Below are positions 6,580 to 26,810 of a stretch of 64,000 nt of DNA, in pieces. Below the pieces are notes generated by a model. It saw only the letters and a program-made list of their open reading frames with translations, was not told the DNA's origin and ran no database searches. The position numbers and the translations under genes were made by a program. Source of the stretch: Roseicyclus marinus (lineage in GTDB: Bacteria > Pseudomonadota > Alphaproteobacteria > Rhodobacterales > Rhodobacteraceae); NCBI RefSeq assembly GCF_030163795.1, contig NZ_JASJOF010000001.1:372001-436000 (forward strand), in the 5' to 3' direction. Within the stretch, counting starts at the first letter, position 1; each line of letters begins with the position of its first letter.

Positions 6580-7575
6580 ATGACCCAAGCGCCCCCTACC
6601 GACGATCTCGCCTCCCGCATCCTCGCGGGCGACCGGCGCGCGCTGGCCCGGGCCGTCACACTGGTCGAAAGCACCCGCCCCGATCACCGGCAGGACGCCA
6701 CCGCCCTGATCGAGGCTTTGCGCAAACCCACCAAGGATCTCGGGCGGCAGGCGCTGCGCATCGGGCTCTCGGGTACGCCGGGGGTGGGCAAATCCACCTT
6801 CATCGAAACCTTCGGCATGGCGCTGGTCGAGGGGGGCTTGCGCGTCGCGGTCCTTGCCGTCGATCCCTCCTCCTCCCGCTCGGGCGGCTCGATCCTCGGC
6901 GACAAGACCCGGATGGACCGCCTGAGCCGCGAACCGGCCGCCTTCATCCGCCCCTCGCCCTCGGCCACGCATCTGGGCGGCGTCGCCCGCCGCACGCGCG
7001 AGGCCGTGGCGCTCTGCGAGGCGGCGGGCTTCGACGTGGTGCTGATCGAAACCGTGGGCGTCGGCCAGTCGGAGACCATGGTGGCGCAGATGTGCGATGT
7101 CTTCGTCCTCCTGCTCGCGCCGGCGGGCGGCGACGAATTGCAGGGCGTCAAACGCGGCATCATGGAAATGGCCGACCTCATCTTGGTCAACAAGGCCGAT
7201 GGCGATCTCAAGCCTGCGGCCACCCGCACCGTCGCCGATTACGCGGGCGCGCTGCGGCTCTTGCGCAAACGCCCGCAGGACCCCGAGGGTTTCCCCAAGG
7301 CGCTGCCCGTCTCCGCCGTCACCGGTGACGGTATCGCCGGCGCATGGGCCGAGGTGCAGGCGCTGGCCCGCTGGCGCAAGGATCAGGGCTGGTGGGATCA
7401 CGCCCGCGCCGCCCAGGCCGTCCATTGGTTCGAGGAAGAGGTGCGCGAGGGTCTCCTGTCGCGCCTGCGCCGCGACCCCGACCTGCGCCGCGCCATGGCC
7501 GACCATGCCGAGGCCGTGACCGAGGGTCGCCTCACCCCCGACGCCGCCGCCGCCGCAATCCTCGCCAAACTGTAG
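6580..7575 (+). CDS. meaB: Methylmalonyl-CoA mutase-associated GTPase MeaB
   Basis: A 331-residue G3E-family GTPase (MeaB/ArgK) that gates adenosylcobalamin loading and protects methylmalonyl-CoA mutase. G1/P-loop is [12 protein letters not shown] near residue 67, the [18 protein letters not shown] segment follows, G3 is ETVGVGQSE near residue 152 and G4 is NKAD near residue 204. ATG at 6580 gives the usual MeaB N-terminus; upstream in-frame sequence is antisense of hrpB. No mutase gene lies in the window. Its stop codon TAG (7573-7575) is part of the GTAG foot of a REP palindrome, so a repeat now defines the end of the gene. Confidence 0.92.
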
Positions 7576-7594
7576 GGTGGGCAATCTGCCCACC
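7572..7594 (+). repeat. REP-like palindrome, solo copy overlapping the meaB stop
   Basis: A GTAG foot (7572-7575) is followed by arm GGTGGGC, 5-nt loop AATCT and arm GCCCACC. GTAG-footed palindromes are what REP-associated tyrosine transposases recognise in enterobacteria (established). The TAG of the foot is the meaB stop codon. A 32-bp direct repeat (7564-7595 and 7612-7643) covers this palindrome plus nine upstream bases of meaB coding sequence, so copies 1 and 2 are probably a tandem duplication. Confidence 0.85.
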
Positions 7595-7619
7595 ACCCCA
7601 CAACCACCGATGCCAAACT

Positions 7620-7727
7620 GTAGGGTGGGCAATCTGCCCACCAAAACCACCCCACCGCCTCACCGACGCCGCCCGTATGGTGGGTTCGCATCGTGGGCCC
7701 GCGTGGTGGGCAAATTGCCCACCCTAC
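7620..7727. repeat. REPIN-like element: inverted pair of GTAG-footed palindromes, 108 bp
   Basis: The left REP at 7620-7642 is in plus orientation (GTAG, GGTGGGC, AATCT, GCCCACC). The right REP at 7705-7727 is in minus orientation (GTAG, GGTGGGC, AATTT, GCCCACC when read on the minus strand). The inverted pair spans 108 bp, exactly the length of the second inverted pair at 26452-26559 inside the RAYT gene. The spacer between the REPs has no obvious gene. The rest of the meaB-hlyU gap (7728-7934) shows no feature I can support. Confidence 0.85.
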
Positions 7728-25191: not shown

Positions 25192-25956
25192 ATGCTGCGC
25201 ACACTGACCGAGGGCCTTGATACCGCCCACCCGCCCATTCTGATCGCCCATGGTCTCTTCGGCTCTGCCCGGAACTGGGGCGTGATCGCCAAGCGCCTCT
25301 CCGACACGCGGCGGGTGATCATGGTCGACATGCGCAACCATGGCGAAAGCCCGTGGACCGACAGCCACGCCTACCCCGATCTGGCCGAAGATCTGGCCGA
25401 AGTGATCGCGGCCAATGGCGGGCAGGCGGATGTGCTGGGCCATTCCATGGGCGGCAAGGCGGCCATGGCCTTGAGTTTGTTGCAGTCTTCGGCGGTGCGC
25501 CGGTTGATCGTGGCCGATATCGCGCCGGTCGCTTATGGCCACACGCAGCAGCATCTGATCGATGCGATGCGGGCGATCGACCTGTCCCGGGTCGAGACGC
25601 GGGGGGATGCGGACCGGCAATTGGCCGTGCATGTGCAGACGGCGGGGGTGCGCGCGTTCTTGCTGCAATCTCTTGATGTCAAAGCGAAAAAATGGCGCTT
25701 GAACCTGGATGTCTTGGAACGGTTCATGCCCGAGATTCTCGGCTGGCCCGACCTGCCCGGGGCCTATGACGGGCCTGCGCTGTTCTTGTCGGGCGCAGAG
25801 TCCGACTACGTGAAGCCCGAGCATCGTCCGACGATCAAGACGCTTTTTCCAAGCGCGAAATTCGCCAAGATCCCCGGCGCGGGCCACTGGCTTCATGCCG
25901 ACCGCCCGCGCGAATTCGAAGCCACGATCCGCGCGTTTTTCGGGGCCGGGGACTAA
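25192..25956 (+). CDS. Alpha/beta hydrolase, YbfF-like esterase
   Basis: A 254-residue alpha/beta hydrolase. The oxyanion-hole motif is IAHGLFGSARNWG near residue 18, MRNHGES follows, the nucleophile elbow is LGHSMGGKAA near residue 81 and the catalytic histidine is in GAGHWLHAD near residue 230. These match E. coli YbfF, an esterase active on short acyl esters and acyl-CoA thioesters. ATG at 25192 gives the typical N-terminus; sequence upstream in the same frame is antisense of the preceding gene. Confidence 0.85.
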   Translation: MLRTLTEGLDTAHPPILIAHGLFGSARNWGVIAKRLSDTRRVIMVDMRNHGESPWTDSHAYPDLAEDLAEVIAANGGQADVLGHSMGGKAAMALSLLQSSAVRRLIVADIAPVAYGHTQQHLIDAMRAIDLSRVETRGDADRQLAVHVQTAGVRAFLLQSLDVKAKKWRLNLDVLERFMPEILGWPDLPGAYDGPALFLSGAESDYVKPEHRPTIKTLFPSAKFAKIPGAGHWLHADRPREFEATIRAFFGAGD

Positions 25957-26096
25957 CAGCGGGCCGGTAGGGACGCAGTAGGTTTCACGTAGGGTTCCTG
26001 TCGTGAAGTCGTAGGTACAAGTGCGGGGCTGGGCCGCACGGGTCGGGCCGCACCCGTTTACTTCGGTTTAATCCTGTTTCGGACAGGCTGGTCCCG
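25957..26096 (+). promoter_or_regulatory. RAYT leader with hairpins and several GTAG words
   Basis: This 140-bp gap contains GTAG at several positions between 25967 and 26014, an inverted repeat TTCACG/CGTGAA around 25984-26006, and a GTGCGG/CCGCAC hairpin at 26021-26039. REP-associated transposase genes are commonly flanked by REP or degenerate REP copies, so these may be decayed foot-plus-stem units. None is a clean REP like those at 7572 or 26452. Confidence 0.35.
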
Positions 26097-26810
26097 ATGT
26101 CGGAGTATCGCCGCCCGCCCGTGACCGGGGCACTCGTGTTCTTCACCGTCACGCTCGCCGCGCGGGGCGGGGATGTGTTGGTGCGCGAGGTGGATCTGTT
26201 GCGGGAGGCGGTGCGGGTGACGCGAGCCGAGCGGCCTTTTGGCATCGAGGCATTTGTGGTTCTGCCCGATCATATCCACGCGGTGTGGCAGATGCCGCCG
26301 GGGGACCGGGCGTACGGCGTGCGATGGGGCGCGATCAAGGCGCGGTTCACCCGCGCGGTGCGGGAAAAATACGGGTCGGATGAATCGGGATGTAGGGTGG
26401 GGTTTTACCCCACCGATGGCGCGCGGGACGGGCCGGGGTATGGGCCGGTATGTAGGCCGGGCTTCAGCCCGGCACCACCCGCACCACCGCCATACACATA
26501 CCCCACCGATCTCCCCGTCGTTCGGTCGGGCAGATATGCCGGGCTGAAGCCCGGCCTACGGCGTGAGAAACGCGAACAGGCCGTGTGGCAACGCCGGTTC
26601 TGGGAACACCACATCCGCGACGAGGCCGATTACTGGGCGCATGTGCGGTATTGTTGGATGAACCCAGTGAAACACGGCTTCGTCGCGCGGCCGGAGGATT
26701 GGCCGTTTTCCTCGATCCATCGGGATGGGCGGTATGTGCCGGGGATGGATTTGTGGTTGTGGGGTGGAACTCCAACCTGCGGGTTGTCACTAAATTTATG
26801 CTTGCATTAA
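26097..26810 (+). CDS. REP-associated tyrosine transposase (RAYT, Y1 transposase) with REP sequences inside the gene
   Basis: A 237-residue HUH single-strand transposase of the TnpA-REP type. The HUH motif is VVLPDHIHAVWQMP near residue 57, and the conserved C-terminal part is WQRRFWEHHIRDEADYWAHVRYCWMNPVKHGFV, which holds the candidate catalytic tyrosine. Between residues about 99 and 154 lies an insert absent from ordinary RAYTs: it is encoded by three GTAG-footed palindromes (26392-26559), read in frame as CRVGFYPT, CRPGFSPA and YAGLKPGLR. The last residues (TPTCGLSLNLCLH) run into the repeat cluster before the P63C gene and look non-native. Whether the protein is still active is open. Confidence 0.9.
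   Translation: MSEYRRPPVTGALVFFTVTLAARGGDVLVREVDLLREAVRVTRAERPFGIEAFVVLPDHIHAVWQMPPGDRAYGVRWGAIKARFTRAVREKYGSDESGCRVGFYPTDGARDGPGYGPVCRPGFSPAPPAPPPYTYPTDLPVVRSGRYAGLKPGLRREKREQAVWQRRFWEHHIRDEADYWAHVRYCWMNPVKHGFVARPEDWPFSSIHRDGRYVPGMDLWLWGGTPTCGLSLNLCLH
26392..26414 (+). repeat. REP-like palindrome, solo copy inside the RAYT gene
   Basis: GTAG foot 26392-26395, arm GGTGGGG, loop TTTTA, arm CCCCACC. Same architecture as the copies at 7572 and 7620, with one arm base changed and a different loop. In the RAYT frame it is read CRVGFYPT, so the TAG of the foot is not used as a stop. Confidence 0.85.
26452..26559. repeat. REPIN-like inverted pair, 108 bp, inside the RAYT gene
   Basis: Left REP 26452-26473 (GTAG, GCCGGGC, TTCA, GCCCGGC) in plus orientation; right REP 26538-26559 is its exact inverse in minus orientation. 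The pair spans 108 bp, a multiple of three with no stop in the RAYT frame. The total length equals that of the pair at 7620-7727, although the arms and spacer differ in sequence. Confidence 0.88.

Follow-up and report, generated by a model that had tools for sequence, protein, structure and literature searches.

We found that the RAYT (TnpAREP) gene at positions 26097-26810 (+ strand) of a 64,000-nucleotide stretch of Roseicyclus marinus DNA (NCBI RefSeq assembly GCF_030163795.1, contig NZ_JASJOF010000001.1, positions 372,001 to 436,000; henceforth referred to as 'the window') carries REP palindromes in frame within its own coding sequence. In-gene REPs of this kind are not a one-off but common in the RAYTs of Rhodobacteraceae, and the palindromic DNA is conserved, beyond what the peptide alone accounts for. 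RAYTs persist as transposases that are mostly present once per genome, and what the host gains from them is unclear. The reading frame is free of stops throughout (ORF translation) and encodes 237 amino acids, which match the NCBIfam model NF047646 (REP_Tyr_transpos) with 157.9 bits (cut-off 80); a Pfam search of the same protein gave no RAYT match above cut-off. The E. coli TnpAREP structure 4ER8 was the sole PDB sequence match at E up to 0.1 (E = 7.9e-37) and, as 4er8_A, also the best Foldseek match for the model of the window protein (E = 2.4e-15). The HUH motif (H59-I-H61) and the catalytic tyrosine, assigned by alignment to Y185, are both present on the TnpAREP fold, and the characteristic motifs of the protein read DHIH, YCWMNP and WQRRFWE. 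Y185 is aligned with the tyrosine of the E. coli enzyme that, by counting along the alignment, is Y115, and a Y115F mutant of that enzyme is named in the available part of PMC8266576. On sequence grounds, the ORF is an E. coli-type RAYT with putative REP single-stranded DNA cleavage activity, in agreement with the gene assignment of the original prediction.

The palindromes lie in a variable slot (26349-26585, + strand; 79 codons) between helix 73-92 and strand 169-172, which we defined in all genes as the stretch between the HUH helix and the WQRRFWE motif and called empty at a length of 72 nt or less. Alignment with homologues set the edges of the insert: the window slot measures 237 nt versus mostly 63-66 nt (21-22 codons) in insert-free RAYTs, which corresponds to about 57 extra residues (about 56 had been predicted). 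The alignment with 4ER8 breaks at window residue 88 and restarts at residue 162 with three E. coli residues in between, and a slot of only three residues is too short to hold a REP. REP a (type I; 26392-26414, + strand) consists of a GTAG foot (26392-26395) and the 8-bp stem GGTGGGGT (26396-26414, loop TTT). REP b (type II; 26452-26473, + strand), with a GTAG foot at 26452-26455 and the 8-bp stem GCCGGGCT at 26456-26473, forms the left half of an inverted pair with REP c, a type II unit of the REP b family in the opposite orientation (26538-26559, - strand; stem 26538-26555, foot CTAC 26556-26559). REP b and REP c are perfect inverted complements over 23 nt and lie 62 nt apart. The slot thus holds the GTAG feet, palindromes and inverted pair that mark REPs and REPINs, as the original prediction had described them (one solo palindrome and one inverted pair, without a stop in the RAYT frame); the palindromes are not extragenic and lie inside the RAYT frame. 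Folded as DNA, the segment 26386-26566 did better than each of 200 dinucleotide shuffles (z -4.5); folded as RNA, it did better than 199 of 200 (z -3.4). At the protein level, an AlphaFold model based on a 77-row alignment has pLDDT values above 90 across most of the core, block means of only 39-65 over residues 91-160 and, within the insert, a single folded piece, the short helix 152-157. The low pLDDT and paucity of fold predict a flexible, disordered surface loop for the insert, which agrees, at the level of a model, with the loop that the original prediction had considered.

Both REP families recur elsewhere in the genome, so that the identification of the palindromes as REPs stands. The type II pattern has four perfect genome matches, REP b and REP c included, and when up to one mismatch was allowed the genome contained six type II matches (two in the slot) and two type I matches (one in the slot); both families are thus of low copy. 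Among the 13 genomes of the genus, type II copy number did not track the slot type, and type I copies were few in all of them. The commonest REP of the window genome (G000) is a different one, GTAGGGTGGGCAAT(C/T)TGCCCACC, which makes up 16 of 26 pattern matches; the only RAYT detected in this genome is that of the window, which goes with another REP family, and the GTAGGGTGGGCAAT(C/T)TGCCCACC REPs are possibly an orphan population. When 33 REP loci of the window genome (four of which are the window RAYT) were scored with a rough codon model, one further in-frame case was confirmed by Pfam: at L284 (G000:C23:64449-64471) a carboxyl transferase gene (PF01039) contains an in-frame REP of the GGTGGGCA family, which reads VGRLPAGVGRLPTLR. 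L289 and several lower-scoring ORFs that overlap REPs are possible further cases. Elsewhere in the window, positions 7572-7727 hold a cluster of GTAGGGTGGGCAATCTGCCCACC-type REPs, two direct and one inverted, the first foot of which appears to form the stop codon of the upstream ORF (L270).

The original prediction regarded the palindromes as an unusual single landing, and this did not survive comparison with related genes. In the genus, a RAYT match was obtained in 11 of 13 genomes, and GTAG/CTAC palindromes are present in the slot of all eight Roseicyclus orthologues of the window clade (window, L002, L003, L004/L017, L005, L006, L007/L012 and L008). Three of these eight slots contain type I pairs and four type II, with both types in the window; the REP a family is also found in the slots of L005, L006 and L008. 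L012 is out of frame, and L017, L012 and L051 are broken RAYT genes. The L017/L004 locus (G001:C54, Roseicyclus sp. Amp-Y-6) is also interrupted immediately upstream of the HUH motif by an insert that contains inverted repeats, shifts the frame and is unrelated to the REPs in its slot. Slots of genus paralogues from other clades (L010, L016, L021 and L029) are empty. In the family, a RAYT match at 1e-10 was found in 125 of 394 genomes. From 30 genus loci, 30 family loci and 118 fetched regions we assembled 113 genes, or 108 distinct Rhodobacteraceae RAYT genes after subtraction of those counted in L061-L140; the set covers genes in which both anchors were found, among the family-search matches listed, and leaves out near-identical genes and genes whose anchors the patterns missed. 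At least one footed unit was detected in the slot of 60 of these 108 genes, 42 slots were empty and six (of 66 non-empty family slots) were extended without a detected palindrome, some of them with recognisable decayed REP peptides. The frame is kept in 107 of the 108 slots, which is partly an effect of the gene-finding anchors, with too-damaged genes uncounted.

Named genome loci L061-L085 gave units in 10 of 21 genes after removal of duplicates (four of the 25 loci gave no separate gene). Among the 52 genes obtained from the 55 loci L086-L140 (three gave no separate gene), 50 had empty slots and two had slots extended without a unit; five of the 52 (L088, L089, L101, L111 and L130) are from Rhodobacteraceae by title. 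Of the other 47, from taxa outside Rhodobacteraceae, 46 had an empty slot, and in the sole non-empty outsider, L119, the stretch is interrupted by stops and lacks a footed REP. A class-wide search returned RAYT matches in 10 of 385 genomes, seven of which belong to other families; none of the spans listed, some of them partial, was unusually long. Within the coding sequence of the 108 genes, footed units were concentrated in the slot: 98 fell within its 12,376 bp, compared with 6 in the 24,472 bp that precede the slot and 11 in the 18,283 bp that follow it, or 17 in the 42.8 kb of remaining coding sequence.

The palindromes are conserved as DNA. When 69 REP-bearing slots were synonymously recoded with RAYT codon usage, a mean of 4.1 footed units remained versus 111 observed, and the observed unit number was reached in 62 of 2760 recodings. 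Since recoding loses the palindromes, they are not dictated by the peptide alone. Among 21 slots selected for an amino-acid pattern (GR-Y/F/H-A/G ...), the codons of the spacer are variable (five codons for Leu, four for Gly, five for Arg) and those of the stem nearly fixed: the Leu codon that derives from the CTAC foot is CTA in 18 of 19 cases, and in 14 of 15 in a second class (15 slots; L037 is counted in both classes). CTA is otherwise rare: in the conserved domains it makes up 46 of 1723 Leu codons. In an alignment of 20 of the 21 slots, 97% of stem cells are paired, and in two pairs both partners have changed (7 cells). The covariation score of 0.15 was reached by 0 of 500 shuffles and slid partners scored 0.03 or less, while the number of double-changed pairs (two) is ordinary under shuffling, being reached in 133 of 500. 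Stem conservation of this kind fits selection for hairpins and recombinational renewal alike. A first comparison of wobble sites (0.92 in stems versus 0.44 elsewhere) was discarded because its pairs had been picked by arm similarity, which made it circular; it was replaced by the synonymous recoding and the classes chosen by amino-acid pattern.

In 42 of the 60 REP-bearing genes a footed unit downstream of the gene was also readable, which allowed the two to be compared. In strict register, the slot arm was identical to the downstream arm in 29 of the 42 (permuted mean 12.1, maximum 20 in 2000, with up to one mismatch counted); relaxing the register by up to two bases raised the number to 35 of the 42 (permuted mean 5.4, maximum 15 in 2000), where the permutation treats genes as independent and ignores their relatedness. 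The match between slot and downstream family is a tendency and no rule, because the arms differ in seven of the 42 genes, among them L033, L048 and L152 with type II-like slots, and because L002 and L003, both outside the 42, have type II slots beside a degenerate type I-like downstream REP. Separately, a TAG stop within a GTAG foot plus stem was seen in 60 of 128 genes outside L086-L140 versus 2 of 52 inside it.

The inserts also bear on their own history. Among units with exact feet, 39 of 40 plus-strand feet fall in phase 1 and 52 of 60 minus-strand feet in phase 0 (a further two units carry feet of both kinds), a bias that either common descent of old inserts or a fixed point of entry would produce. 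The remaining minus-strand feet are in phase 1 or 2 (L007, one of those in phase 1, is the frameshifted gene) and five genes have a feet-inward arrangement; these extra phase and orientation classes point to separate insertions. On a tree built from 177 of 181 genes, insert presence or absence would need at least 20 changes and detected REPs at least 23, but the tree is poorly supported, with 91 of 174 inner branches open. The window slot combines two REP families, type I and type II. In the domains that flank the slot, the window gene is nearest to L005 (0.928 and 0.946), and the last 30 nt of its slot are closer to L003 (0.90) and L007 (0.80) than to L005 (0.40). From these sequence identities, it appears that a block of the slot has passed from one RAYT allele to another, in either direction. 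Five regions were checked as sources of the mosaic, four with type I and type II matches close together and one (in G000) with type I alone: mixed REP clusters were present at L307, L309 and L310 and a single type I REP at L311, while L308 gave no match to the patterns. The clusters at L307, L309 and L310, made up of type I, type II and other GTAG REPs, are apparently intergenic and resemble the window mosaic in their make-up. The right flank RREKREQA, common to the slot and other RAYT alleles, was absent from the mosaic-source regions read, which makes a RAYT allele the likelier donor.

We consider it probable that the gene is an E. coli-type RAYT with in-frame REPs in a disordered loop, that such REPs entered the loop repeatedly and that the palindromes are kept as substrates. 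REPs, usually of the RAYT's own family, would have entered the loop several times in Rhodobacteraceae, probably, as we infer, by RAYT action; the loop would tolerate in-frame inserts, leaving frame-keeping copies to survive; and the hairpins would stay palindromic as still recognised RAYT substrates, either because selection keeps them as a cis element of the gene or because short-tract recombination between RAYT alleles renews them. The window slot would have arisen when a type I REP was joined to a type II block with its right flank, most simply by exchange inside the slot. The 42 insert-free genes among the 108, which include same-genus paralogues, and the independence of type II copy number from slot type count against it, as do the type II slots of L002 and L003 next to type I-like downstream REPs, and the broken genes. 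A passive origin, in which REPs land by chance, in-frame loop insertions survive and recent arrival or gene conversion alone keeps the palindromes intact, has in our estimate a little under an even chance. REPs are known in many ORFs (PMC3733652, sections available), the carboxyltransferase gene of the same genome provides a second in-frame REP and alleles can exchange slot content, but the units are concentrated in one slot of one gene family, and the spacers common to several genera mark old inserts whose stems are nevertheless still nearly perfect. Only tentatively do we entertain that the in-gene REPs of Rhodobacteraceae RAYTs are a conserved cis element selected as DNA (or RNA) hairpins, with stem and enzyme changing together. 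It is likewise possible, if doubtful, that the internal hairpins are a selected cis site at which the RAYT binds or nicks its own gene, or an mRNA hairpin blocks expression, so that the enzyme limits its own dose. The near-frozen synonymous sites, the rare CTA foot codon and the paired stem changes in inserts common to genera speak for such a site, as does the agreement of slot and flank family in 35 of 42 genes; the insert-free RAYTs and the variation in REP number and orientation speak against it. In the accessible text of PMC8266576, E. coli TnpAREP needs GTAG for binding and cleavage, whereas two other RAYTs still bind or cleave when GTAG is mutated. If there were a selected cis element, the enzyme would keep its own recognition site in its own frame, which would amount to built-in self-limitation or self-linkage of enzyme and substrate. 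That the insert is a native protein segment with incidental palindromes is very improbable: part of the spacer peptide (P..PVV.SGRYAGLKPGLR) is indeed conserved across genera, but recoding destroys the palindromes, paralogues and outgroups have no insert and one site holds different REP families. In the searches made, no distant genome was found with the same residues minus the palindromic DNA, the observation that the original prediction had named as decisive against it.

The state of the window copy itself is a separate matter. A footed REP is absent from 25930-26110, and downstream, where most orthologues have a REP, the window retains only a damaged remnant (26753-26790, + strand, edges approximate), recognised by eye against L002, L003, L005, L006, L008 and L012. 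The remnant lacks the GTAG from which most orthologues take their TAG stop, and the reading frame extends to 26810. The window copy may have been impaired recently. We think it unlikely, however, that this RAYT is dying through damage to the ends that bear its REPs. The loss of the REP-borne stop and of most of the downstream REP, and the fact that one of only two type I matches in the genome is the window copy itself, would fit such decay, but the frame is open, the HUH motif and the tyrosine are kept, dN/dS to relatives is 0.09-0.30 and the defect would be the lost stop, not the insert. Over 28 pairs dN/dS ranged from 0.08 to 0.66 and was 0.30 or less in 25, pairs with L004 resting on 50 codons only; these low values place the lineage under purifying selection. 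The suggestion that the insert disables the enzyme finds no support for the group in these pairs, nor in the 107 of 108 slots in frame. Genes that bear the enzyme's own kind of substrate, beside insert-free relatives, form a large natural series in which autoregulation and the co-evolution of enzyme and palindrome are directly testable.

A literature search found REPs inside Rhodobacteraceae RAYTs unreported in openly accessible main texts, supplements aside. The E. coli TnpAREP/REPtron (PDB 4ER8) shares its fold, HUH motif and tyrosine with the window protein, and GTAG-footed REPs adjoin its gene (PMC8266576 and PMC6006769, as far as their available text goes), but it differs in its three-residue slot. 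REPINs (Bertels and Rainey 2011, PMC3116915, in the part available) have the inverted REP pair seen here, extragenic there and in the RAYT frame here. The sections available of PMC3733652 describe REPs within ORFs and REP feet that serve as TAG stops, with no RAYT host mentioned in those sections; its intragenic GTAG REPs and Rickettsia palindromic elements are in-frame coding palindromes as here, but are scattered over unrelated genes, whereas ours are concentrated in one RAYT slot. Closest is TnpAREP subclass 2.4 (Quentin et al. 2018, PMC6006769), whose genes, according to the available text, hold in-frame REPs generally between HuH and Tyr, as the window gene does; there, in-gene REPs are called unique to subclass 2.4 and modelled as a peripheral extension. 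Subclass 2.4 has NH[IFV]H and YIxNNP motifs and occurs in Cyanobacteria, Bacteroidetes and various phyla, whereas the genes described here have DHxH, FWE and YCWxNP and belong to Rhodobacteraceae. By the motifs in Table 1 of that paper, DHIH and YCWMNP set the window protein apart, the W motif being ambiguous for the subclass since WQRRFWE contains both WQ and WE. With two subclass 2.4 motifs missing and the E. coli enzyme as best PDB relative, the window RAYT is of the same kind on a different branch, and in-gene REPs are thus not confined to subclass 2.4. Overall, the kind itself is already published; what is new is that in-gene REPs are widespread in E. coli-type RAYTs of Rhodobacteraceae and are conserved at the level of DNA.
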